Assembly: GCA_040752895.1 (NCBI GenBank)
Contig: JBFMHN010000003.1
Span: 219,501 to 283,500, forward strand
Origin: Pseudomonadota bacterium
GTDB lineage: Bacteria; Pseudomonadota; Alphaproteobacteria; GCA-2746255
Length of the DNA: 64,000 bases
Reading direction: 5' to 3'
Of this stretch, positions 23,026 through 46,611 are shown one piece after another (positions within the stretch are counted from its first letter, which is position 1; every line of letters starts with the position of its first letter). A model generated the notes under the pieces. It saw only the letters and a list, made by a program, of their open reading frames with translations. It was not told the DNA's origin and searched no databases. The position numbers were made by a program, and so were the translations under genes.

Positions 23026-23455
23026 TGACCCCATCGATAATGCGTCGCCCGAAAGCGCGACACTTCGAGAAGATATTCAGATCGGCTCCGGCTTTCGCCC
23101 GGTGCGCGATCCAATCCAGAAATTTTTCACGGCAGTTGTTTTGGGGGACATGAAAGCACTCCAGAACGAATACGCAGATATGGGCGACAATATAAACATC
23201 AAGGAGTCGGAAACGAAATCGACCGCGCTACACTACGGTGCGGCGTATCGGTCGCGCCCCGTCATAAAGTGGCTCATCCGATTTAAGGAACTCGATTATC
23301 TGGTGCGCGATTACAAGGGTCGCTTACCGTCCGTTCTTGCTTATGAAGTGGCAAACGATCCTGCACTTGGTCGGTTTCTCGCCAAGAAGGAAAACGAGCA
23401 GGCGCGGGCGCGCGGCATCGACATCCGCACACTTTTTGCCCCGTCGCCGAACTAA
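23015..23455 (+). CDS. Ankyrin-repeat-like small protein
   Basis: A 146-residue protein starting MAGNDPIDNASPES, with GGGAGAACGC before the ATG at 23015. The segment KSTALHYGAAYRSRPVIKWLIRFKELDYLVRDYKGRLPSVLAYEVAND has the TALHYGA / VIKWLI pattern of one to two ankyrin repeats. It probably mediates a protein contact with the upstream partner. It converges on the TraG-like gene with a 4-bp overlap of stop codons. Confidence 0.65.
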   Translation: MAGNDPIDNASPESATLREDIQIGSGFRPVRDPIQKFFTAVVLGDMKALQNEYADMGDNINIKESETKSTALHYGAAYRSRPVIKWLIRFKELDYLVRDYKGRLPSVLAYEVANDPALGRFLAKKENEQARARGIDIRTLFAPSPN

Positions 23456-24995
23456 TCGTATTTGCCCGCAAACCACTTAAATCCAGCACTTGCCGGGTCG
23501 AAATAGCGCACGCGTTGCAAAACCATCGGCGCAACATCCGGCCATATAACGAGTTCGCGACGCATTGAATCGGTGCGCGCGAAGTACATCATGAGTTCAT
23601 CCGGCGTCATTAGGCGATGCATTTCCTTCCCGAAGACCTGCACGGCGTTGCCATCACGCATTTCTGTACGGCTCGTATCGACCGGCGTACGGCCCAGACG
23701 CCGGGATAAATACTCAGCCGTCGTCCAGTCATTTATAGCGAAAGCCTGTACGATACCCGCATTGGCCATGAAGGTTTCCCAGCGATTGCCATAAAGGTCC
23801 TTGAGCTGGTTGAAGTCCTGCACAATCGTCCAAAGCTTGATGTGATAGGGATCGCCCGCGACGAGACCCGCCGCCGTCTGGATAATGTTTAATTTGCCGA
23901 TTGCGGCTGCAAATTCGTCCAGGGCAACGAGCACCTGGACGCCGGTTGCGGGCACGCCGCGCACCTTTTCCATCTCGCCGAAGAATTGGTTGATCATCAG
24001 TCGGAACCAGCGATGGCAGAGCCCAAGCCGTCCCGACGGCAGGCATAGATATATAGTCACGCCGTTTCGTTTCGTTTTTACATCCCGCAAGGTGAAGCTA
24101 TGGCCGGATACGACTTTCCGGATGCCGCCATAGGACAGGAAGCGCGTATGCCGTCGCACCGTAGAGAGAACGCTGCCACGTTCGTTGACACCCTTGTCAT
24201 AGAAGTCCCGCGCCGCGCCTTTGATGGCGCTCGCTATCACGCACCCCGGATCGCGCGCGAACAATAGCTCCGCCGTTTTCATCATTTCGCGGTCGAGCGC
24301 GGCAATAGGATCGCCAAAAGCGTCCACTTCACCGGGGAGGGGAGTGAGGGCCTCCTTGATTTTTCCATCGACTGTGATGAGCGTCCGCTGCCCCTTAAAT
24401 TGTGGAGCAACGGCCACATGTAGAATAAGCCCCTCAATGAAGTTGCGGGCGGACTCATCCCAATGTGGGTCCTTCTCATGGCCTGATGTGGCAACCATCG
24501 CCTCGGCAACGCGCCCGCATCCTCAATGATGCTCGCACTGTACGGCGATAGGATGGCCAGGGGATTGAACTGGGCACGCCGCATCGCTGCGTGACCACTC
24601 GTAATCTCGAAGGGGTCTAGAACATATACGTCCTGGCCCATTTCCATCCGCCGTCGGGCTGTTCTATTTGCAAGTTCGCCCTTTATGTCCGTGCATATGA
24701 CGCTGGCGGTTGTGCAGAGGAGATTGGCCGTCAGCATGACCGACTTGCCGGTCTGAGAGCCGGCCACCGTCAATACATGCCGGGGGTCTTCGATACCGAT
24801 CAGCTTCGGACCAAGGGCTCCCACCAGTATCTTGCCGGCCGGGTTTTGAGGCGCATAAGCCATAGCGTTGCTGGCGACGATGTCCGTCGTTTCCGCCCAT
24901 GTCGCTTGCGGGGCAGTCTGTTCGCTCATCAGCACTGAATGCGTGCCGCGAGGCAACTCTGACTCAAACGCCGTGACGAATTGTTCCCTGCTCAT
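23452..24995 (-). pseudogene. traG: TraG/VirD4-like coupling ATPase, frameshifted
   Basis: Two overlapping frames make one protein of about 514 residues. The first (24995 to about 24514) has the Walker A motif GSQTGKS and IKGELANRTARRRMEMG; the second (about 24514 to 23452) continues RVAEAMVATSG and includes VLVALDEFAAAIGKL (Walker B) and VQDFNQLKDLYG. One base is missing near 24511-24516 (GGGCGC where GGGCCGC would restore the frame). The protein lacks the N-terminal membrane helices of classical VirD4. The coupling protein would bring DNA to a T4SS. Either the gene is dead or the assembly has a single-base error. The CGAGGAA motif lies 56 bp upstream. Confidence 0.85.
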
Positions 24996-25940: not shown

Positions 25941-26306
25941 ATGGGACTTGATATGTATGCTTACGCAACCAACGAGCAACCGGCCAGTCCGGTCGATTTT
26001 TCGACCGACGACTATGCCCGGCTGCACTACTGGCGGAAACATCCAAACCTTCACGGCTGGATGGAAAATCTCTACCGCGAGAAGGGCGGTGCGGCCGAGT
26101 GCTTCAACTGCGTCAGCGTTGAACTAGCGTCCGAAGACTTAGACCGCCTTGAAGCCGATGTCCGGGCCGGCAATCTGCCGGAAACGTCAGGCTTTTTCTT
26201 CGGAGCATCCGATGGCACGGAAGTCGAGGATGACCTCGCTTTCATCGCCAAGGCTCGTCAGGCCATCAGCGAAGGCGAGTCCGTCTTCTATTCGTCCTGG
26301 TGGTAA
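25941..26306 (+). CDS. MGLDMYAY-family small protein
   Basis: A 121-residue protein beginning MGLDMYAYATNEQPAS, with HYWRKHPNLHGWMENLYRE and ending ESVFYSSWW. These features define a small family found in phages and mobile elements that is sometimes labelled phosphoglycerate kinase in databases without basis. Function unknown. AAAGGAAC lies before the ATG and a strong terminator follows at 26328. Confidence 0.78.
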   Translation: MGLDMYAYATNEQPASPVDFSTDDYARLHYWRKHPNLHGWMENLYREKGGAAECFNCVSVELASEDLDRLEADVRAGNLPETSGFFFGASDGTEVEDDLAFIAKARQAISEGESVFYSSWW

Positions 26307-26327: not shown

Positions 26328-26369
26328 AAACGCCCGGAGCTCTTACGAGCTCCGGGCGTTTTGTTTTTC
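26328..26369 (+). terminator. Rho-independent terminator
   Basis: A perfect 15-bp stem AAACGCCCGGAGCTC / GAGCTCCGGGCGTTT with loop TTAC is followed by TGTTTTT. It ends the transcript of the gene at 25941 and isolates the transfer region downstream. Confidence 0.92.
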
Positions 26370-26500: not shown

Positions 26501-26611
26501 CCTTAACGCTTACAACGTTAGAATTAACGTAAGGCTGGAGGGCTTTCTGATTGAGTACAAGGTGTGCGTGGTACTACCACGCCCACCTTGCTGAGGGGAC
26601 ATCCTGTCCCC
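26501..26611. other. Candidate oriT core with nic-like site
   Basis: An AT-rich nested dyad (ACGTTA GAAT TAACGT at 26515-26530, inside CCTTA / TAAGG) is followed by a hairpin GGGGACA TCC TGTCCCC at 26595-26611. The loop region holds CATCCTGT (26600-26607), which fits the YATCCTGY nic core known from IncP and VirD2-type origins. It lies about 370 bp upstream of a MobC-like and a relaxase gene. Assignment as oriT is inferred. Confidence 0.5.
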
Positions 26612-26677
26612 CGCAGGCCCCCCTTGGTCTCCCTAAGCTCATAGCGCCGTTTAACGTCGTCTTCGCTAAGGGAGATA

Positions 26678-26907
26678 TGCGGCGACCATTGGTCATTCGT
26701 GACCATCGAGGTCACGTCGCCGCAGGCACCGTTCCGGCGGTGCATCCCGGCCAGGGAGATTGCGGCTCTCCCTGGACCCATCCGGCGAAAGGGCTTGTCG
26801 CGCCCTTTGCAAACCGCGACCAAGGCTTTCGCGCCCTGGACCACGACCAAAGGGAGACTTCGCCTCTCCCCTTGGAGCCCCATGGACCAAGGTATGCGCG
26901 ACCTTGG
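26678..26907. repeat. Hairpin array upstream of mobilization genes
   Basis: Seven hairpins follow in 230 bp. A nested one (26678-26724) has stem TGCGGCGAC / GTCGCCGCA and inner TGGTCA TTCG TGACCA. Then GCACCG / CGGTGC (26726-26743), CCAGGGAGA / TCTCCCTGG (26751-26775), AAAGGGC / GCCCTTT (26788-26808), CCAAGGC / GCCCTGG (26820-26839, one mismatch), CCAAAGGGAGA / TCTCCCCTTGG (26847-26875, one mismatch) and CCAAGGT / ACCTTGG (26887-26907). Most loops are 6-7 nt. No gene is believable here, although both strands are open in several frames. Confidence 0.75.
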
Positions 26908-26974: not shown

Positions 26975-27325
26975 ATGTCGGACGAAACGAAAAATAAGCG
27001 CGAAGCGCCCATTTCCTACCGTCCCCCGCAGGAATTGCGGGAGGAGTTTCATGCCCGCGCCAAAAACTCCGGCCTCTCGGTTTCAGCTTTCATTACCGCT
27101 TCGGTTTTTGGCCAGACCGCCCCTCGTAGCCGGAAAAAGCCGCCTATCGAAAAACGTGACCTCGTCCAGCTTCTCGCCAAATGTGTAGCTATTCATGACC
27201 AGCTTTCGCGCTTTGACCTGAAGGGCAAGGACAACCCCGAGATCGCGGCCACGCTGGAAGATGCTCGGCGGGATCTCGGTGAACTGCGCGCCGCCTGTTT
27301 CAAGGCCCTCGGGAGGACGCCATGA
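26975..27325 (+). CDS. MobC-like/ribbon-helix-helix mobilization protein
   Basis: A 116-residue protein starting MSDETKNKREAPISYRPPQELREEFHARAKNSGLSVSAFITASVFG. The strand-helix-helix pattern followed by a helical tail is typical of MobC-type relaxosome accessory proteins that bind oriT. AGAGG precedes the ATG at 26975; the open frame further upstream crosses the hairpin array and is not taken. The stop overlaps the relaxase start by 4 bp. Confidence 0.82.
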   Translation: MSDETKNKREAPISYRPPQELREEFHARAKNSGLSVSAFITASVFGQTAPRSRKKPPIEKRDLVQLLAKCVAIHDQLSRFDLKGKDNPEIAATLEDARRDLGELRAACFKALGRTP

Positions 27326-28994
27326 TCCCGTTTGCCTCCCAACGCGGCGGCGGCCAGGACCTCGCCACCCATCTTCTCAATGCCCAGGACAATGAGCAGG
27401 TGGTTTTGGCCCATTTGCGCGGTGCCATTGCCCAGGATTTGCACGGGGCGCTCGCAGAATGGGAACTCCAGGCCGATACGCTCACCAATTGCCGCAATTA
27501 TCTCTACAGCCTCTCCATCAATCCCGATCCGCAACAGGGCAAGCTATCGACCGAGCAATATCTCGACTATGTCGCCCGTGTCGAAGCGGCCCTTGGCCTC
27601 TCCGGTCAGCCGCGGGCGCTCGTTCTGCATGTCAAATACGACAGGCCCCATGTTCATGCCGTCTGGTCTCGCATCGACGCTGACTCCGGCAAAGCCATTC
27701 ACATGGCCTTCGACCATGAAAAACTCATGAAAGTTACGCGCCAGTTCGCGCGTGAGCATGGCATCACCTTGCCGGATGGATATTCCCGTGACGGCGATGG
27801 CCCCGACAAAGCAGGGCAGCTCACTCTTTATGAGAAACACCAGCAGGACACGACGGGTCTGACCAAAGAGCATCGTATGGAGGTTGTGACCGACCTCTGG
27901 CGAAATAAAGAGTCTCCGTCCGCCTTCGTACGCGCCCTCGGTCAAAACGGCTACATGCTGGCGACGGGCAAGCGGCCTTATGTGCTTGTTGATGCGTACG
28001 GCAATACCCATGCCTTACCCAGGCTTATCAACGACAAGAACGTCCGCTCAAAGGACGTAGCGGCTTTTTTAGGTAAGGAGTTCCCGCCTGAATCACTTCC
28101 CTCCGTCGAAGAGGCGAAGAAGCTCGCGGCCGACCATCTTAAGAAGATGGAGTCCTTCGATAAGAAGAAAATAGTTGATGAAAAGACTCCCGAAACGAAG
28201 ACCCGCGAGGCGAGGCGGCGCAAAGTCATCCTGGACAAGATTCAAGAAATGAAAACCCGTCAGCTCGATCAGAAGCGCAAGCTTGAGGCGTTTCAACAGA
28301 AGCGGCGTATGGCGCTAAAGGTCCGCTACATGAAGGAGGTCAAGCGCGTAAAGACACAGCGCGAGAAGACCAAAGCCACGGGCCTTGCGGCTTTCCTCGG
28401 TCGCGTTACCGGCATTGATAAAGTGATTCGTAAAGTCCGCCGCGTGCGTGACCGTATCCGCTTTGAAAAATACAAGACGCAAGTTCAGACGCTTGAGAAG
28501 AAGCAGGCGCAGCAATTGTCGATCCTGCGTGAACGCCATCGTATGCAGTTGCTCGACATCCGCCGGCAGGTCAGAGCCGTCAACAAAGTTGAGAAGCGGG
28601 AAGCCAAATCCCGGAAAACAACAAAACTCCGGGAGCTTCGGCTGGAGCAGCGCGCGCGCCGAGACATCGATCATATGCCGTCCATCGATATGAAGAGCTA
28701 TCAGGCGGTTCGGACCAAAGTCGTCAAGGGTCAGGCCGCTGCAAAAGATACGAGGAACGCGCTCCCGTTCAGCCGCCCTCAAAATCCCGCAGTCTCGATG
28801 ACTGGCGCGGCGGTCTGGTGCGCCTCACCGATCTCTTTGATCGTGCGAGCAAGGGTGAGAAAGAAGAGGGTAAGGACGGCAAAGAGTCTTTTGGAGAACT
28901 GCTGCCGAAGCCAGCGCCCGTTTTGAGACCGAAGACGCCCGATGAGCTACGGCGGAAACGCGAGCGGGACCGCGATAACGGCCGCTCGCAGTGA
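27322..28994 (+). pseudogene. Relaxase/mobilization nuclease, frameshifted near the C-terminus
   Basis: The N-terminal domain (about 1-260) has LHVKYDRPHVHAVWSRID, the histidine motif of MOB relaxases, and a likely nucleophile Tyr among NYLYSLSINPD. The rest is a long Arg/Lys-rich coiled coil. The frame shifts near 28751: the conceptual product continues in another frame as QPPSKSRSLDDWRGGLVRLTDLF to a stop at 28994, and adding one G (ACGGAGG for ACGAGG) restores it. Without repair the protein ends at 28926 with an unrelated tail of about 45 residues. The catalytic domain is intact, so activity may survive. Relaxases nick oriT and pilot the strand into the recipient. Confidence 0.85.
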
Positions 28995-29051: not shown

Positions 29052-29079
29052 TACACAAATGTGTATCCATTGGTTACAC
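29052..29079. promoter_or_regulatory. TACAC/GTGTA operator before RHH gene
   Basis: TACACA AA TGTGTA (29052-29065) is a perfect dyad, and a third half-site TACAC lies at 29075-29079. The site is 10 bp upstream of a ribbon-helix-helix protein gene, so self-repression is likely. Confidence 0.55.
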
Positions 29080-29088
29080 TGATCAGCC

Positions 29089-29271
29089 ATGAAGGACGCA
29101 GGCCTCAGAATCCGCATTCAGCGCGAATTGCGCGAGCAGTTCCTGGAGGCGTGTCGTGTGCAGGACAAACCTGCCGCGCAGGTCTTGCGAGAATTCATAC
29201 GGGAATTCATCGAGGAAAACAAAAAAGAAGGTCGCCAGCATCAATCGAAAGACGATCAACCCAAGAGATAA
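29089..29271 (+). CDS. Small RHH-type regulator
   Basis: A 60-residue protein, MKDAGLRIRIQRELREQFLEACRVQDKPAAQVLREFIREFI, with a strand (GLRIRIQ) and two helices, the ribbon-helix-helix fold. It is the first gene of the plus-strand defence operon, 9 bp upstream of the helicase gene, and has an operator-like dyad just upstream, so it is probably the operon's repressor. Confidence 0.8.
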   Translation: MKDAGLRIRIQRELREQFLEACRVQDKPAAQVLREFIREFIEENKKEGRQHQSKDDQPKR

Positions 29272-29279
29272 GCCAATTC

Positions 29280-32200
29280 ATGCAAATCGTAGACAACATA
29301 AGCAATCTTCTTGGAGATGATATTCGCTCCTCTCTTCGCAAAGGATCGAAGCTGAAGATTGCGGCCTCGTGCTTTTCGATATTTGCCTACGAGGCGCTGA
29401 AGAAGGAGTTAGAGGCTGTCAGCGGCCTGGAGTTTATTTTTACAGCACCTACGTTCGTCCCAGAGGACGCCACAGACAAATTCCGCAAGGAGAAGCGGGA
29501 ATTCTTTATTCCCAAGGTGCAGCGTGAGCGCAGTCTTTACGGCTCCGAGTTCGAAATTCAGCTTCGAAATAAGCTTACACAGAGAGCTATCGCGCGTGAG
29601 TGTGCAGAGTGGGTGCGCCGAAAGGCGATTTTCAAGTCCAACAAGACGAAAGCGCCGATGCAGCAATTCGTTTGCATCGACAATGGCGACGATCAGGTCG
29701 CCTATATGCCCGTTAATGGCTTCACCGCTGTTGATTTGGGACTCCAGAAAGGGAATGCAGTCTCAAACTTCGTAAACCGTTTTAACGGACCTCCATATAC
29801 AGCGACGTATTTGAACCTCTTCGACCAAATTTGGTCGGACCCGGAAAAATTGGAGGACGTTAGCGAAGCGATTTGCCAGCATATTGAAACCGTCTACCAC
29901 GAGAACGCTCCAGAGAGGATTTACTTCCTCGTTCTATACAACTTGTTCAAAGAGTTTCTGGAGGAAGTCGATGAAGATGTCCTGCCTAATGACCGGACAG
30001 GGTATCTAGATACTCTGGTATGGAAAAAGCTGTTCAACTATCAGCGTGATGCTGCCACAGGCATCATCAATAAGCTGGAGACCTACAACGGCTGCATCCT
30101 GGCCGACAGCGTCGGGCTAGGTAAAACCTTCACTGCCTTAGCAGTGATCAAATATTACGAACTCCGCAATAAATCGGTGCTCGTCCTATGCCCGAAGAAG
30201 CTCGCGGACAATTGGCTCAACTTTAACAGCAATCTGAAAACAAACCTCTTCGCCAAGGACCGCTTCAGCTATGACGTTCTGTGCCATACGGATTTGTCCC
30301 GAACCAGTGGAGACTCATTCGGCATTCCGCTCAACCGCGTCAACTGGGGAAACTACGATCTAGTCGTAATCGACGAGTCACATAACTTCCGAAATAACGA
30401 TGTCTATAAAGACAAGGAGACCAGATACCAGAAACTCATGAATCAGGTCATTCGCGAGGGCGTAAAGACCAAGGTCTTGATGCTGTCCGCGACCCCCGTC
30501 AACAATCGCTTTATCGATTTGCGAAACCAGCTTGCGCTTGCCTACGAGGGGCAATCGGAAACGCTCAGCAAGAAGCTGAGAACGACGACCAGTATCGAGG
30601 AAATCTTTCGCAGGGCGCAGACCGCATTCAATCTTTGGTCGAAGCTCCCTCCGGAGGAGCGAACCGCCGCATCTATTCTAAAGATGCTCGACTTCGACTT
30701 CTTCGAGCTCCTGGATAGCGTCACTATCGCTCGGTCGCGCAAGCACATCGAGACATTCTACGACACCGTAGAAATAGGAAAATTCCCGGAGCGCCGAAAG
30801 CCGCTTTCGTTTCAGTGTCCCTTAACGGCGCGCAAAGACGTTATGACGCTCAACGAGATTGTCGGCCAGCTCACCTTGCTCAAGTTGGCAGTATACGCTC
30901 CGCTTAGTTACATCTTGCCCAGTCGCGTTGGAAAGTACGAAGCCCTCTATGACACAGAGGTTGGAGGTGGTCGAGGGCGGCTCAAGCAGGCAGATCGCGA
31001 ACGAAGCTTGCAAGCTCTGATGACAACAAACTTGTTGAAGCGGCTTGAAAGCTCAGTTGAGGCCTTTCGTCTTACTCTCCGCTCTTTGAAGAAAAACCTG
31101 GCAGGTACCTTGGACGCTATCGCTGATTTCGAGCGTTCGGGCGGAGAGCTTGAGGTTTCCGACTATACGGCCAATGCTGCCGACTTCGATCCAGACGATG
31201 ACGATCTAAGCGGCTTGGGGGATTTTACGGTCGGCAAGAAAGTGCGGATAAGTCTCGGGGATATGGATGTTCAGTCCTGGCAGCACGACCTCAAAAGCGA
31301 CTTGGCTATTATTGATGCCTTGTTGGCATCGATGGACATGATCAGACCGAATGACGACGCCAAGCTTCAACACTTGAAGGCGCATATCCGAAAAAAAATC
31401 AGTGCACCGATCAATCCTGGAAACAGAAAAATTCTGATTTTCACGGCGTTCGCCGATACGGCGAATTATCTCTATGCCAACATTTCCGACGAATTGTTCA
31501 AGGGAAAAGGGCTGAGCACCGCAAGAGTCACCGGTTCCGACGCGCCAAAGACGACGCTTAAGAAGAGCTACGATTTCCAATCTATCCTGACGTTGTTCTC
31601 GCCAAAATCAAAAGAAAAGGCACTAATCCTTCCTGACGACGACAACGAGATAGATATTCTTATAGGAACGGACTGCATTTCCGAAGGCCAGAATCTCCAG
31701 GATTGCGACTATCTCATTAATTACGACATTCATTGGAATCCCGTCAGGATCATTCAGCGCTTTGGCCGAATTGATCGCATCGGATCACCAAACGCTCAAA
31801 TTCAACTCGTCAACTATTGGCCTGATATTTCGCTCGACGAATACATAAATCTCAAGGAACGCGTCGAGAATAGAATGATGATCGCCGACGTGACCGCCAC
31901 CGGCGACGACAATGTTCTAACTGCCAAGAGCAGCGAAATTGCGTACCGAAAGGAACAGCTCAAGCGTCTTCAGGAAGAAGTCATTGAGTTGGAGGACGTG
32001 AAAACAGGCGTATCCATCACAGACTTAGGCCTCAATGATTTTCGGATGGACCTGCTGAACTACGTCAAGGAGAACGGCGATCTGGAAAGTATGCCCAACG
32101 GTCTGCACGCGGTAGTCCCGGCCGATAAAGATATTGGCTTGCCGTCCGGCGTTATTTTCGCCCTCCGCAACATTCATGACGGGGTGAATATCAACCAACA

Positions 32201-32555
32201 AAACCGGCTACACCCGTACTATCTCGTGTACGTCTCGAATGCTGGTGAGATTGTTGCGGACCATACCGAAGTTAAGCGCCTACTTGATCTCGTGAGAACG
32301 AGTTGCAAGGGGCATTCGGAACCCATCCAGGCGGTATGTCGCCTGTTCAATGAGCGGACTGATGATGGTCGCAGAATGGACCGTCAGTCAGAACTCCTAA
32401 GCTCAGCGATTAGGTCTATGGTTGATGTAAAGGAGGAGCGCGACATAGATAGCCTATTCTCTGGTGGGAGAACGACGGCACTTGCAAACACGATTGCCGG
32501 TCTCGATGACTTCGAGCTAGTAGCGTTTCTCGTGATCGAGGAGGCCAAAGCATGA
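29280..32555 (+). CDS. PLD-like/SNF2 helicase
   Basis: A 1091-residue SF2 helicase. The first 150 residues resemble the phospholipase D-like domain found before SNF2 helicases. Motifs follow in order: DSVGLGKT (Walker A, about residue 276), VVIDESHNFRN (DESH), LMLSATPVNN, GTDCISEGQNLQDCDYLINYD and QRFGRIDRIG. The frame is open upstream to 29061 but that part overlaps the RHH gene, so the ATG at 29280 is used. It overlaps the DUF4391 gene by ATGA. The helicase, DUF4391, Mod and Res set recurs in defence islands; the helicase presumably translocates on DNA. Confidence 0.9.
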   Translation: MQIVDNISNLLGDDIRSSLRKGSKLKIAASCFSIFAYEALKKELEAVSGLEFIFTAPTFVPEDATDKFRKEKREFFIPKVQRERSLYGSEFEIQLRNKLTQRAIARECAEWVRRKAIFKSNKTKAPMQQFVCIDNGDDQVAYMPVNGFTAVDLGLQKGNAVSNFVNRFNGPPYTATYLNLFDQIWSDPEKLEDVSEAICQHIETVYHENAPERIYFLVLYNLFKEFLEEVDEDVLPNDRTGYLDTLVWKKLFNYQRDAATGIINKLETYNGCILADSVGLGKTFTALAVIKYYELRNKSVLVLCPKKLADNWLNFNSNLKTNLFAKDRFSYDVLCHTDLSRTSGDSFGIPLNRVNWGNYDLVVIDESHNFRNNDVYKDKETRYQKLMNQVIREGVKTKVLMLSATPVNNRFIDLRNQLALAYEGQSETLSKKLRTTTSIEEIFRRAQTAFNLWSKLPPEERTAASILKMLDFDFFELLDSVTIARSRKHIETFYDTVEIGKFPERRKPLSFQCPLTARKDVMTLNEIVGQLTLLKLAVYAPLSYILPSRVGKYEALYDTEVGGGRGRLKQADRERSLQALMTTNLLKRLESSVEAFRLTLRSLKKNLAGTLDAIADFERSGGELEVSDYTANAADFDPDDDDLSGLGDFTVGKKVRISLGDMDVQSWQHDLKSDLAIIDALLASMDMIRPNDDAKLQHLKAHIRKKISAPINPGNRKILIFTAFADTANYLYANISDELFKGKGLSTARVTGSDAPKTTLKKSYDFQSILTLFSPKSKEKALILPDDDNEIDILIGTDCISEGQNLQDCDYLINYDIHWNPVRIIQRFGRIDRIGSPNAQIQLVNYWPDISLDEYINLKERVENRMMIADVTATGDDNVLTAKSSEIAYRKEQLKRLQEEVIELEDVKTGVSITDLGLNDFRMDLLNYVKENGDLESMPNGLHAVVPADKDIGLPSGVIFALRNIHDGVNINQQNRLHPYYLVYVSNAGEIVADHTEVKRLLDLVRTSCKGHSEPIQAVCRLFNERTDDGRRMDRQSELLSSAIRSMVDVKEERDIDSLFSGGRTTALANTIAGLDDFELVAFLVIEEAKA

Positions 32556-33232
32556 CGGCCTTCTTCGACTACCCCAAGGCAGCCGCCTACGGCAGAGTTC
32601 TGCCGAAGACAAAAATCTATGAGCATTCAAAGGCCGGCAACAGGCTCAAGCAGCTTTTTGTGGATCAGGTCGATCAAATCGTCTGGCAGTACAAACTTGC
32701 ACCTGAGACAATTAACTTAAGTGCGACGGAATCAACCGCCGAGATTCAGATTTTTAAGATCACACTTCGTGGTGCAGCTCTGAGTGAAGATGTGTTGCGT
32801 GCGATTGATAGCGCGATAGCATTTCCGATCATTTTTGAATTGATAGAGGGCAAAAAACGCAAGGCAATCGCAGCCTACAAGCGTCCCAGTGAGGTGGATC
32901 CCCAGAAGTGGGTAGTGAGCGAGTATTTTGAATCTGATTGGGAACCTGAGGATAATACACGGGAGCCGCTTCCCGCCGCTCTCAATCTGGGCGGTCTCTA
33001 TGATATGCTCGTAGGCAAATTGATTCCCGCGAGCGTGGGTCGGAACGAGCCCATCGCTAGGCGTGTAGAGCGGATGGAAGCGATACGCGCGAAGGAACGC
33101 GAGGCGCAGCGCATCAAGGCGCGCCTTGTCCGGGAAAAGCAATTTAACAAACGGGTTGCGATCAACGCCGAGCTGCGTGACGTAGCAAAGGAATTGAAAC
33201 GCCTTGGCGCGCCGCCAAGGGCTGTCGATTGA
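32552..33232 (+). CDS. DUF4391 family protein
   Basis: A 226-residue protein starting MTAFFDYPKAAAYGRVLPKTKIYEHSKAGNRLKQLFVDQVDQIVW, the DUF4391 signature, with a coiled, basic C-terminal third. DUF4391 proteins accompany helicase and type III-like methylase genes. Role unknown; possibly a complex scaffold. Start overlaps the helicase stop by ATGA. Confidence 0.88.
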   Translation: MTAFFDYPKAAAYGRVLPKTKIYEHSKAGNRLKQLFVDQVDQIVWQYKLAPETINLSATESTAEIQIFKITLRGAALSEDVLRAIDSAIAFPIIFELIEGKKRKAIAAYKRPSEVDPQKWVVSEYFESDWEPEDNTREPLPAALNLGGLYDMLVGKLIPASVGRNEPIARRVERMEAIRAKEREAQRIKARLVREKQFNKRVAINAELRDVAKELKRLGAPPRAVD

Positions 33233-33248
33233 GAAGGTTGGTGTGGCG

Positions 33249-35159
33249 ATGGAAAAATTGAAGATGCACAGCCCTGACATTACGCAGGACCATATCGGGA
33301 AGATACGTGAATTGTTTCCTGACTGCGTGACGGAAGCGAAAGATGATGACGGAAAGCTCCGCTTCGCCGTGGACTTTGATCAACTACGCCAGATATTAAG
33401 CGGCCACATCGTTGAGGGACCTCAAGAGCGGTATCATCTTAATTGGCCGGGGAAACGTGAGTCCCTATTGGCTGCCAATGCCCCAATTGCCAAAACGCTT
33501 CGCCCATCTAGGAATGAAAGTGTTGAATTCGATAAAACGCAGCACCTTTTCATAGAAGGCGATAATTTGGACGCTATGAAGCTACTAAGGGAGAATCTCC
33601 TATCTCGGGTTCGCTGTATATATATCGATCCGCCATACAATACGGGCGGTGATTTCATTTACAGAGACGATTTCGTTGAAAACGTCGGAGATTTTCTAAT
33701 CCGATCTTGTCAAGTAAGCGAAATTGGAGAGCGGTTAGTGGCTAATCCAGAGTCAGCCGGACGATACCACTCCGATTGGCTTTCAATGATGTATAGCCGT
33801 TTGCGGCTTGCGCGCCTCCTCTTAGCCGATAACGGCATCATATTTATTTCTATTGATGTCTTGGAGCTCGCAAACCTTATCGCAATTGGGAAGGAAGTAT
33901 TTGGTCAGAGTAATTGTATCGGTGTCATAGCTCGATCTACCGGCACTCGAATGGGCACTGGAAGCAGAGGAATTGCAAGGGAGCTAGACTATATCGTTGT
34001 GTTTTCCAAGCAGAGCGACGGGGTGCTCTGTGGATTGCCTATGACGGAGTCTGAGGTCGCAATTTATGACCAGGAAGATGGTCGGGGTCGTTACCTATCG
34101 CGATCTCTCCGTCGTACTGGTGGCGAGAATCGCAGGGAGGACCGCCCGAGCATGTTCTATCCCGTTATATCTCCGGACGGAGACGAAGTTTATCCGATAG
34201 CTCCGGAAGGCTACGAGAGCAGATGGGTTTGCGGTAAGGAAACCTATGGAAAATTGGTAGAAGATGGATTGATCGAGTGGAAGAAAGTAAAGAAGAACGG
34301 TGAGGAAAAGTGGCAAGTTTATCAAAAGCATTACTTAACAAATGCCATTAAAGAGTCCTCCGATTTGTGGACAAGTGCGGAAGGAAACAAGAAGGCGACA
34401 AAAGAGGTCGCGGGCCTCTTCGACAAAGTGAAGATATTTGATCATCCCAAACCATTGGATGTTATGTGCAGAATTATCCAAATGGGTATGTCCACCTCCT
34501 CACACGATATAGTGTTGGATTTTTTTGGAGGATCATGCACCACCGCAGCAGCAGTCCTGAAGCAAAATGCGCTTGATGGAGGCAACAGGCGTTTCATCGT
34601 AGTTCAGCTCGATGAGCCGGCGGACAAGAAATCAGAGGCGCATAAGGAGGGATTTTCAAATATTGCTGACGTGGCGAAGGAGCGTATTCGTAGGACGGGG
34701 AAGCGGCTTCTTGAAGAGAAGCACCATAAAGATTGGAACAAGGATGTCGGTTTCCGTGTTCTGAAGATCGATAACTCCAACATGGCCGACGTATATTACG
34801 CGCCGGCTGAGGTGAGGCAGGAAGACCTCCTATCAGCGGTCGATAATATCAAGCCGGGTCGCGACAATCCCGAAGACCTACTCTTTCAGGTGCTGGTTGA
34901 TTGGGGGGTAGATTTAACGCTGCCCATTCGCAAAGAGACAGTTCAGGGCAAGACCATTTTCTTCGTCAATGAAGAGCCTCAAGACCTAATTGCGTGCTTC
35001 GATACGGGAATTACGGAAGAGCTAGTTAAAGAGCTTGCGAAGTCAGAACCGCTGCGCGTCGTGTTTCGCGACAACGGCTTCGTCTCCGATGCCGTAAAGA
35101 TCAATGTCGAGCAGATATTCCGCCAGCTCTCTCCAGCAACCGACGTAAAGTCGATTTAG
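33249..35159 (+). CDS. Type III-like site-specific DNA methyltransferase (Mod)
   Basis: A 636-residue adenine methyltransferase from the ATG at 33249. DPPYNTG lies at residues 127-133 and the SAM-binding DFFGGSCTTAAAV follows in the second half, so it is beta-class order as in Mod subunits of type III systems. The target recognition region is between the motifs. Codon use is more AT-rich than in the flanking chromosome, a sign of transfer. Starting Met at 33204 would overlap the DUF4391 gene. It would methylate self DNA and give specificity to Res. Confidence 0.93.
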   Translation: MEKLKMHSPDITQDHIGKIRELFPDCVTEAKDDDGKLRFAVDFDQLRQILSGHIVEGPQERYHLNWPGKRESLLAANAPIAKTLRPSRNESVEFDKTQHLFIEGDNLDAMKLLRENLLSRVRCIYIDPPYNTGGDFIYRDDFVENVGDFLIRSCQVSEIGERLVANPESAGRYHSDWLSMMYSRLRLARLLLADNGIIFISIDVLELANLIAIGKEVFGQSNCIGVIARSTGTRMGTGSRGIARELDYIVVFSKQSDGVLCGLPMTESEVAIYDQEDGRGRYLSRSLRRTGGENRREDRPSMFYPVISPDGDEVYPIAPEGYESRWVCGKETYGKLVEDGLIEWKKVKKNGEEKWQVYQKHYLTNAIKESSDLWTSAEGNKKATKEVAGLFDKVKIFDHPKPLDVMCRIIQMGMSTSSHDIVLDFFGGSCTTAAAVLKQNALDGGNRRFIVVQLDEPADKKSEAHKEGFSNIADVAKERIRRTGKRLLEEKHHKDWNKDVGFRVLKIDNSNMADVYYAPAEVRQEDLLSAVDNIKPGRDNPEDLLFQVLVDWGVDLTLPIRKETVQGKTIFFVNEEPQDLIACFDTGITEELVKELAKSEPLRVVFRDNGFVSDAVKINVEQIFRQLSPATDVKSI

Positions 35160-35177
35160 AAAGAGGGTGGGCGCGGC

Positions 35178-38100
35178 GTGAAACTCAAGTTCAAAGTCCA
35201 ATCCTATCAGACAAGCGCTGTAGATGCGGTGATCGATTGCTTCGCTGGTCAGCCCAGGACTGCTGGCCTTCGCTATCGGATTGATCCCGGCAGGGCGGCG
35301 CAGGCGACGGCATTCGGTGAAGGATTCAAGAACGAAGATATTCGTCTAACGGATGGTCAGATATTGACTAACATTCAGTCTGTCCAGAAACAGCAGAATC
35401 TTCCGGTATCGCGGTCGCTCGAAGAATTTACGGAAGTGGATCGTAGGGGGCAGGTCACGGCAAAGCCGAGAAATTACAGGCCGGGATCAAAGTTCAATCT
35501 AGATGTCGAGATGGAGACGGGCACCGGCAAGACCTATTGCTACATCAAGACGATCTTCGAGATGAATAAGCGATATGGCTGGTCAAAGTTCATTATCATG
35601 GTGCCCAGCATCGCGATCCGCGAGGGTGTGTACAAATCCTTCGAGATCACAGCCGACCACTTCGCTCAGACCTATGGTAAGAAAGCGCGCTATTTCATTT
35701 ATAGTTCACGCGACCTTGATAAGTTGGAAGGATTTTCTTCGGACGCTGGTATCAACGTGATGATCATCAACATCCAGGCGTTTAATGCGCGCGGTGCAGA
35801 CAATCGTCGGATTTATGATGAGTTGGATGATTTCCAGTCACGCCGTCCTATTGATGTGATCAGTAGCAATCGCCCGGTCCTGATTCTGGACGAGCCGCAA
35901 AAGATGGAAGGCTCGGCAACACTCGAAGCATTGCCGAAGTTCAATCCGTTGATGATTCTGCGCTACTCGGCGACGCACCGCACCAATCATCTAAAAGTCC
36001 ACAGGCTTGACGCGCTTGATGCATATAACCAGAAGCTCGTGAAGAAGATTGCGGTACGTGGCATTCAGACGCGCGGCCTCGCCGGCACGAACGCCTACCT
36101 GTACCTCGAAGGGATCGACATCTCAAAGAAGGCCCCGGTGGCGCGGATTGAGATGGAAGTAAAGCTGAGTTCCGGCGAGATCAGACGGCAGCTCAGGCGG
36201 CTGGAGTTTCGTCGTGATCTTTTCGTTGAGTCCGGGGAACTCGATCAATATCGCGGATTCACGATCTCCCAGATTGACTACAACAACGACACTGTAGAAT
36301 TCACAAACGGAGTCGTTTTGCAGGCCGGTGAAGCGACCGGCGATGTAAACGAGAAGGACATCCGTCGCATTCAAATTCGGGAGACCATAAAGGCGCACCT
36401 GGACAAGGAAAAGCAGCTCTTTGCGCAGGGCATAAAGGTGCTATCGCTATTTTTCATCGACGAGGTTGTTAAATACCGAGACTACGATCAGGACGACGAA
36501 AAGGGCGATTACGCCCGCATTTTTGAGCAGGAGTATGCTCACCTGAAAGAGGAATATCTTTCAGAACTAGCTATCGATAATGAAGAGTATCGAAAGTATT
36601 TAGCCGGAATCCACGCGGCTGCGACCCATAACGGATATTTCGCAATCGACAAGAAAACAAATCGGATGAAGGACCCGGCGGCTTCGGCCAGGGGTGAAAA
36701 TGCTGGCCTGTCTGATGACGTAGACGCCTACGACCTTATCCTGAAAGACAAAGAGCGGCTCCTATCATTTGAAGAGCCGACGCGCTTCATCTTTTCGCAT
36801 TCTGCACTTCGGGAAGGCTGGGACAATCCCAACGTATTTGTCATGTGCATGCTCAAGCACAGCGACAATATGATTTCGCGTCGCCAGGAGGTCGGTCGCG
36901 GGCTGCGCTTGTCCGTTGACCAGCACGGCGAGCGCATGGACCTGCCGGCTATTGTGCATGACATAAACGTCCTGACCGTGGTTGCGAGTGAAAGCTACAA
37001 GGACTTTGTCGCAGGTCTACAAACGGAGATAGCGGAGTCCCTGTCGGCTCGTCCTCGTAAGGCAAACGAAGAATATTTCACGGGCAAAATGCTTGATACC
37101 GAACAGGGCCAGATCGAGGTTACCCCCCAAATCGCACGACAGATTTACCGGTATCTGGTCAAGAACGACTACACTGACGACGGCGACAAAATAACGGAAG
37201 GTTACCACGCGGCAAAAGAGGCAGGTCAGTTAGCTGAGTTACCTGATGATTTAAAACCGTACGTCAGGCAGATCATTGAATTAATTGACAGTGTTTTCGA
37301 TGACAGCAAATTGCCGAAAATCGATGACGGGCGAAAACCAAAGACTAATCCACTTAATGAAAATTTCCAGAAGAAGGAATTTCAGGAGCTCTGGTCACGG
37401 ATAAATCGCAAGGCCGTCTATCGCGTGGATTTTGAATCAAGCGAGTTGGTTAAAAAAGCCATCAACACGCTGGAAAGCGATCTTCGCGTGACGCCGCTTC
37501 AGTATACGGTCCAAGTGGGCGAACAACTCGCTGCCGTGACGGACGAACAGTTGAGTGCGGGAGAGAGCTTCAGGCTGACCAGTACCAGCACCGAAAAGGG
37601 CGGGGCTGTCCACTCGGATGTCACCTATGACCTTATCGGCAAAATTGCGGAAAATGTCCAACTCACCAGAAAGACGGTGGCGGAGATTCTCGCGGGCATA
37701 AAGCCGGCGATCTTCGGCCAGTTCAAAATGAACCCTGAACATTTTATCGCCGAAGCATCGCGGCTCATCAAAGAGCAGAAGGCCACGGCAATAATCGAGC
37801 AGCTTTGCTACGACGAGGTTGAGGACCGCTACGATACGGACATCTTCACAGCCGCCCAGACAGGGCAGGATTTTTCCCGCGCCACAGGTAAACTTAAGAA
37901 CCACGTCTATGACTATTGCGTGACGGACTCGGACGTGGAGCGCAGATTTGTCGATGAGTTGGATACGAGCACGGAAGTTGTGGTCTATGCAAAGCTTCCT
38001 AGAGGGTTTTTGATTCCAACCCCGGTCGGAGACTACAACCCGGATTGGGCCATCTCTTTCAAACAGGGAAGCGTCAAACACATCTACTTCGTTGCCGAGA

Positions 38101-38273
38101 CGAAGGGCTCTATGTCGTCCATGAAACTCCGCGAGATTGAGAAAACTAAGATCGAGTGCGCGCGAAAATTCTTCACGGAGCTGAACGAGCGGATTACTGC
38201 CGACAAGGTCAAATACGATGTCGTAACCGACTACGCTAAATTAATGGACCTCGTGAGTGGGGTAGCTGCATGA
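35178..38273 (+). CDS. Type III-like restriction helicase-nuclease (Res)
   Basis: A 1031-residue protein from a GTG start. The helicase motifs are METGTGKT (112-119), [11 protein letters not shown] (DExx box), RYSATH and [16 protein letters not shown] ... [10 protein letters not shown] (motifs V-VI). The C-terminal region has NPDWAI followed by VAETKG, a PD-(D/E)xK nuclease site. In type III enzymes Res uses ATP to move along DNA and cut. It is 18 bp after Mod and so part of the same operon. Confidence 0.92.
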
Positions 38274-46412: not shown

Positions 46413-46611
46413 TTCGCTGAGATCGCCTCAGGCATTGTTTCCGGCCGGACGCGAGATTTGGCGCATCAGCGGCACCCGGTCAGGCCGCGTCCGGAATCAT
46501 TCGCGTAAAGTATCGATTTTCGACACTTTACGCGTACGATTGCGGAATTCTTTGGAATTGAAGGGCCATCAATCCCGGCGCAGCGAAAAGTCTATGAAAG
46601 CAGTTGCGAGC

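Follow-up and report, generated by a model that had tools for sequence, protein, structure and literature searches.

An ordered array of about ten hairpins lies at 26558-26907 of the window (the whole stretch of 64,000 nucleotides analysed here), and it is conserved beside the same relaxase family in dozens of bacteria, as an ordered series with matching changes in its stems. This conserved cis element is apparently undescribed; no prior description was found in Rfam or in the literature searched. Judging from the sequence, its first two hairpins, P1 and P2 (26558-26611), are very probably the transfer origin (oriT), and the array probably acts as single-stranded DNA folded into hairpins, while transfer is under way or shortly afterwards. 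The features are as follows, those of the array being given without a strand.

26519..26524, plus strand: −10-like box TAGAAT, probable promoter of the mobC-relaxase operon (consensus match only; −39 from P1).
26557..26558, minus strand: predicted nic site, bottom strand 5'-CGCACACCTTG/TAC-3', the slash marking the nick (flanking-base conservation, MOBP-like motif).
26558..26590: P1, CAAGGTGTGCGTGGT-ACT-ACCACGCCCACCTTG, predicted oriT inverted repeat with one conserved mismatch (covariation, 37 loci).
26595..26611: P2, GGGGACA-TCC-TGTCCCC, conserved core together with P1 (covariation).
26628..26675: P3, long-range stem of 26628-26638 with 26665-26675 (TCTCCCTAAGC / GCTAAGGGAGA) and a variable inner hairpin (inverted repeat).
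26678..26724: P4, outer stem of 26678-26685 with 26717-26724, enclosing the inner hairpin 26698-26716 with loop ATCGA (DNA fold).
26726..26743: P5, hairpin GCACCG-TTCCGG-CGGTGC (covariation).
26751..26775: P6, hairpin CCAGGGAGA-TTGCGGC-TCTCCCTGG (hairpin scan and relatives).
26788..26808: P7, hairpin AAAGGGC-TTGTCGC-GCCCTTT (hairpin scan and relatives).
26820..26839: P8, hairpin CCAAGGC-TTTCGC-GCCCTGG, one A.C mismatch (covariation).
26847..26875: P10, hairpin CCAAAGGGAGA-CTTCGCC-TCTCCCCTTGG, with a recurrent A.C pair (G.T on the bottom strand; hairpin scan and relatives).
26887..26907: P11, hairpin CCAAGGT-ATGCGCG-ACCTTGG (hairpin scan and relatives).
26975..27325, plus strand: mobC/NikA-like accessory gene, 116 aa (NikA-like E 5e-5, just under Pfam's cut-off).
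27322..28926, plus strand: relaxase, MobA/VirD2-like, 534 aa (PF03432 E 2e-18).

The array starts 120 bases ahead of 26678, where the sequence-only reading had set its beginning. That reading had described seven hairpins in 26678-26907, several with perfect stems, as a tandem array before mobilization genes. A hairpin scan found all seven in place, and the mobC/NikA-like and relaxase genes lie directly downstream, the stop of the former overlapping the start of the latter. Two details differ from that description: the stems CCAAGGC of P8 and CCAAAGGGAGA of P10 each carry one A.C mismatch, and the first of the seven hairpins is enclosed by the outer stem of P4. The 350 bases from 26551 hold the most hairpins anywhere in the 64 kb. 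Folded as single-stranded DNA, the top strand of the 230 bases was predicted to reach −64.2 kcal/mol, against a shuffled mean of −43.4 (z −5.9; 0/200 shuffles as low), and folded as RNA it gave a z of −4.5. Both predictions, which had been proposed as checks, beat the shuffles and bear the array out as real. The bottom strand of the array was predicted to fold at z −7.3; hairpins on single-stranded DNA, which a single-strand origin calls for, are thus predicted on both strands.

To see how far the array recurs, we collected relatives. A DNA search returned a copy, 71% identical, before mobC-relaxase in Sinorhizobium meliloti pSymB, and about 90 further loci came from relaxase-query searches of plasmids, genomes and viral contigs. 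Because these loci were chosen by relaxase and not by array, the link between the two is not circular. The search upstream of other relaxase genes, likewise proposed beforehand, showed that 65 of the 92 relaxase loci carry the array immediately before mobC-relaxase; the other 27 are unlabelled for the array, and three of these (L028, L053, L068) come without upstream sequence. Hairpin counts upstream of the relaxase exceeded every shuffle in most loci (typically 7-13 versus 1-2). On the relaxase tree of 92 rows, the array label changes 6 times, compared with 23.6 times when labels are shuffled. The pattern YACAAGRTGTGCGYGG gave 10 matches in 385 genomes of the class, of which 7 were chance matches and 3 true, the latter all with array and relaxase.

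The hairpins of the relatives follow one order: P1, P2, P3, P4, P5 (GCAACG), P6 (GGGAGA), P7 (AAGGGC) and P8 (CAGGAC), then an optional P9 (CCGGTG), which is absent from the window, P10 (AAGGGAGA) and P11 (CCGGGG). The outer stem of P3 is also present in relatives, with different inner hairpins, and the position of P4 is occupied there by GGGCATCGAGCCC. Loops (TTTCGC or CTTCGGC) and linkers (ACCCATCGA and ACCACGA) recur along the array, in keeping with part of the earlier suggestion that the hairpins are diverged copies of one unit; yet each hairpin position has its own orthologue in relatives, and we therefore rejected a single degenerate repeat unit. Downstream of P2, the relatives continue with GYGGACCCCC or GTTGCATCCCC, that is, with a conserved unpaired G and a second C-run. 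This C-run could pair with the G-run of P2, a possible alternative fold of 26595-26625.

The length of the array varies. In pTF4.1, a plasmid of 4.1 kb, there is a single hairpin besides P1 and P2, and a Xanthomonas plasmid (L011) has P1 and P2 only. In four other loci (L122, L124, L125, L127) the core is accompanied by hardly any array or none, which means that not every element requires one. An element that varies in size and is sometimes missing would fit a helper of second-strand synthesis or strand processing.

We then analyzed whether the stems are kept by selection on pairing, their lack of conservation in related elements having been named in advance as what would speak against the array. 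For P1/P2 in 20 loci, 24 cells were changed on both sides, compared with 7.6 in shuffles, and the signal was lost when the partner was slid. For P1 in 37 loci, 98.6% of cells were paired and 35 were two-sided, against 12.6 in shuffles (0/500 as high). The P1 arm CAAGRTGTGCG served as search anchor, so conservation of this arm itself is partly circular. P5 displayed 8 two-sided cells against a shuffled mean of 1.9 (0/500), with variants GCAACG/CGTTGC, GCATCG/CGATGC and GCAGCG/CGCTGC in relatives, and P8 displayed 16 against 5.3 (0/500), both under a test looser than that for P1/P2, in which outer pairing was not demanded. These results indicate that stems are kept through compensatory changes in P1, P2, P5 and P8. 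An alignment of P11 anchored on its linker picked wrong sites with no pairing in it and was discarded.

The same pairing data bear on the proposal that the inverted repeats are duplex sites, or extrudable cruciforms, bound by MobC, the relaxase or a host regulator close to the promoter of the operon. The nearness of the repeats to a promoter and their spacers of 6-7 bases would suit it, as would strict Watson-Crick pairing, which needs no single strand. A sequence-specific duplex binder, however, has no need of stems that differ from hairpin to hairpin while both arms change together. Moreover, the half-sites are not repeated, whereas the loops and linkers are, and arrays are also found away from mobC. 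We regard such sites as improbable.

Arrays away from mobC were revealed by a covariance model built from P1/P2, which found copies of the core without an adjoining relaxase. In 19 of the 22 genomes with such a stand-alone core, there was a strong match to the same relaxase family. A comparison of coordinates puts core and relaxase on one contig, at a distance of 5-29 kb, in 20 pairs; 19/20 face each other. We withdrew the label "relaxase-less oriT copies" for these cores, the relaxase being elsewhere on the same contig. A second island layout emerges (L122-L132, L134-L155), in which the cargo separates the core and array from a relaxase at the opposite end; the L150 island, for example, has the relaxase followed by a coupling protein, and a resolvase gene near the core. 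Relocated copies have a shorter array, with a mean of 2.5 hairpins versus 0.6 in shuffles, above every shuffle in only 6/24. A core in cis with a relaxase gene, as an oriT should be, is thus seen in 65 of the 92 relaxase loci, where it lies directly upstream, and in 20 more pairs on one contig. Since the core occurs in relaxase-carrying genomes though apart from the relaxase, it behaves as a cis site belonging to the island. The array is separable from the relaxase operon and not tied to the mobC mRNA.

Right of the array in the window (29061-38273) lie genes for a SNF2-type helicase, a DUF4391 protein, an N6/N4 DNA methylase and a Type III-like restriction subunit with an endonuclease domain, which together look like a defence system; a similar-looking protein of 1073 aa directly follows the array in L129. 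In relatives, restriction or abortive-infection genes often stand to the right, and genes for SprT-like, ankyrin-repeat or coupling proteins to the left. Islands of this relaxase family often carry defence-like cargo. In the window, two overlapping reading frames share the VirD4/TraG-like coupling protein (23452-24995, minus strand), which points to a probable frameshift in the genome or the assembly. A perfect 15 bp inverted repeat followed by T-rich sequence (26328-26361) is likely the terminator of the 121 aa gene at 25941-26306. Further away, at 46502-46534, the inverted repeat CGCGTAAAGTATCGA (15 bp, near-perfect) lies downstream of an ORF of 434 aa whose sequence looks HipA-like.

As for the relaxase itself, the family has an invariant His at position 17 (H17 in 91/92 relatives), and no invariant Tyr was present in the first 150 residues among the 92 relatives. 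H17 sits about where, we presume, RP4 TraI-type relaxases have their catalytic Tyr. The protein may be a histidine relaxase. A sequence search found no relative with a solved structure.

We wondered whether the array acts as DNA or as RNA. A structured RNA could be the leader of the mobC-relaxase mRNA, or a mobilization sRNA like the sgm-sRNA of SGI1, an essential sRNA between oriT and mob genes (PMC9299015). The −10-like box lies 25-50 bases before P1 in 44/51 mobC-adjacent array loci, against 17/153 control windows, so an RNA copy of the array is probably made where mobC follows. The ordered architecture with conserved loops and linkers, and an RNA fold that is strong on both strands (mean z about −7 in 61 loci), would also suit an RNA. 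Relocated arrays, by contrast, precede other genes, and a promoter box before them is not above background (4/24 versus 9/72 controls); promoter and position before mob genes, as expected of a mob leader or sRNA, are thus both seen in the adjacent clade and neither in the relocated one. In addition, G-U pairs are depleted on the sense (top) strand, making up 4.1% of predicted pairs versus 9.5% in shuffles, and less so on the bottom strand (9.0% versus 13.2%); as controls for these shares, the only 4 tRNAs were too few, and rRNA, not found in the own genome, was uninformative. P1 displayed no one-sided G-U change in 37 loci, and no Rfam match reached the gathering score in the window, with only sub-threshold matches nearby. 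G-U depletion and arrays away from the mob operon without a box fit single-stranded DNA, as the sequence-only reading had proposed, better than RNA. An RNA role is weakened, more so for a leader than for an RNA working in trans, of which SGI1 offers a precedent; we consider it unlikely, though it deserves more weight than the duplex sites.

At the predicted transfer site, the bottom strand of P1 reads CGCACAYCTTG, then TA in the window's clade and mostly CG in the relocated clade, and these two bases outside the P1 arm are conserved (TA 80%/88%; CG 70%/95%). The sequence cut by MOBP relaxases is (C/T)ATCCTG(C/T), and an inverted repeat lies 5' of it (PMC3772185). A bottom strand ending in CAYCTTG before TA or CG, with an inverted repeat 5' of it, fits the geometry of a MOBP nick, P1 being directly 5' of the nick only if the nick lies at the predicted place. 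Compared with the MOBP consensus, CATCTTG is one base off and the CACCTTG of the window two. The conserved sequence is CAYCTTG rather than the ATCCTG core of MOBP nick regions, which occurs exactly only in P2 of the window and four relatives; we therefore class the site as oriT-like, not as a proven MOBP oriT. This CTTG-type hexamer, placed inside a hairpin arm unlike that of RP4, counts against the explanation we favour.

On these grounds the nick is predicted at 26557/26558 of the bottom strand, which we lean towards as the transferred strand, with some reserve. With the nick there, the array would enter the recipient last, as the trailing end. The sequence-only reading implied that the array is the first DNA to act in the recipient, at variance with this placement. 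Its idea corresponds to single-strand promoters or protein-loading sites in a leading region on the top strand, with the nick in or before P2 and the array entering first. CATCCTGT, an exact (C/T)ATCCTG(C/T), does occur at 26600-26607, within P2 of the window and 3' of P1; P2 of L012, L029, L038 and L039 has it too, and F Frpo offers a leading-region precedent (PMC10085688). But this hexamer is not conserved in other relatives, though P1 is, and it is the top strand that shows the larger G-U deficit. Entry of the array first seems to us quite improbable. In 45/61 loci, the fold of the bottom strand is slightly better than expected from shuffles. Mismatches (A.C on top 35, G.U 12) had been considered as proof of the folded strand, the recurrent A.C on top being a G.T pair on the bottom strand. 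This argument was dropped: the asymmetry vanishes without that one recurrent position, so mismatches do not settle the strand.

Taken together, we propose that P1 and P2 would be the oriT of an integrative mobilizable island, whose relaxase would nick the bottom strand at about 26557/26558. The array at 26628-26907 would be a cis-acting annex of this oriT on the transferred (bottom) strand, at its trailing end, and would most likely help to turn that strand into a double-stranded circle. It could start second-strand synthesis like an sso/ssi site, or it could hold the 3' end for processing and rejoining. We infer the nic position, the strand, the action as DNA and the step served by the array, and we put the chances of the whole, namely oriT at P1/P2, bottom nick and an annex of folded single-stranded DNA aiding second-strand start or T-strand processing, at about even. 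More tentatively, and with the odds somewhat against it, the array may represent an oriT annex of a new class. Such an annex would consist of single-stranded DNA hairpins in a set order, up to about a dozen of them, whose loops and linkers are conserved and which a protein or polymerase would recognize on the transferred strand. It would serve one relaxase family across Pseudomonadota and could move within the island independently of the relaxase gene.

How the transferred strand becomes double-stranded is poorly understood for mobilizable islands, and for ICEs "virtually nothing" was known of this step in 2015 (PMC4595007). The array allows it to be tested directly, and searches with the P1/P2 core can locate such islands and predict their oriT. 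Among known systems, MOBP oriTs such as those of RP4 and H. pylori tfs4 (PMC3772185) resemble the site in having an inverted repeat beside a nick-like sequence, a mobC/nikA-like gene and a VirD2-like relaxase. Here, the nick motif is CAYCTTG instead of ATCCTG and lies inside a hairpin arm, and a long ordered hairpin array follows, none being described for MOBP oriTs in the literature examined. The sgm-sRNA of SGI1 (PMC9299015) likewise comes from a structured stretch that lies between the oriT of a mobilizable island and its mobilization genes. SGI1 uses the tyrosine-recombinase-like MpsAB and no relaxase, unlike the present island, and its sgm-sRNA was shown by genetics, while our array is known from sequence and has relocated copies without a promoter box. 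ICEBs1 sso1 (PMC4595007) and F Frpo (PMC10085688) are, like the array, sets of hairpins that are predicted to form when the DNA of a transferred element is single-stranded. Deletion of sso1 alone did not lower transfer of ICEBs1 (PMC4595007), so single-strand origins can be redundant. The likeness to sso1 and Frpo is one of hairpins, and the array described here differs from both in having more hairpins, in a fixed order, at the predicted trailing end.
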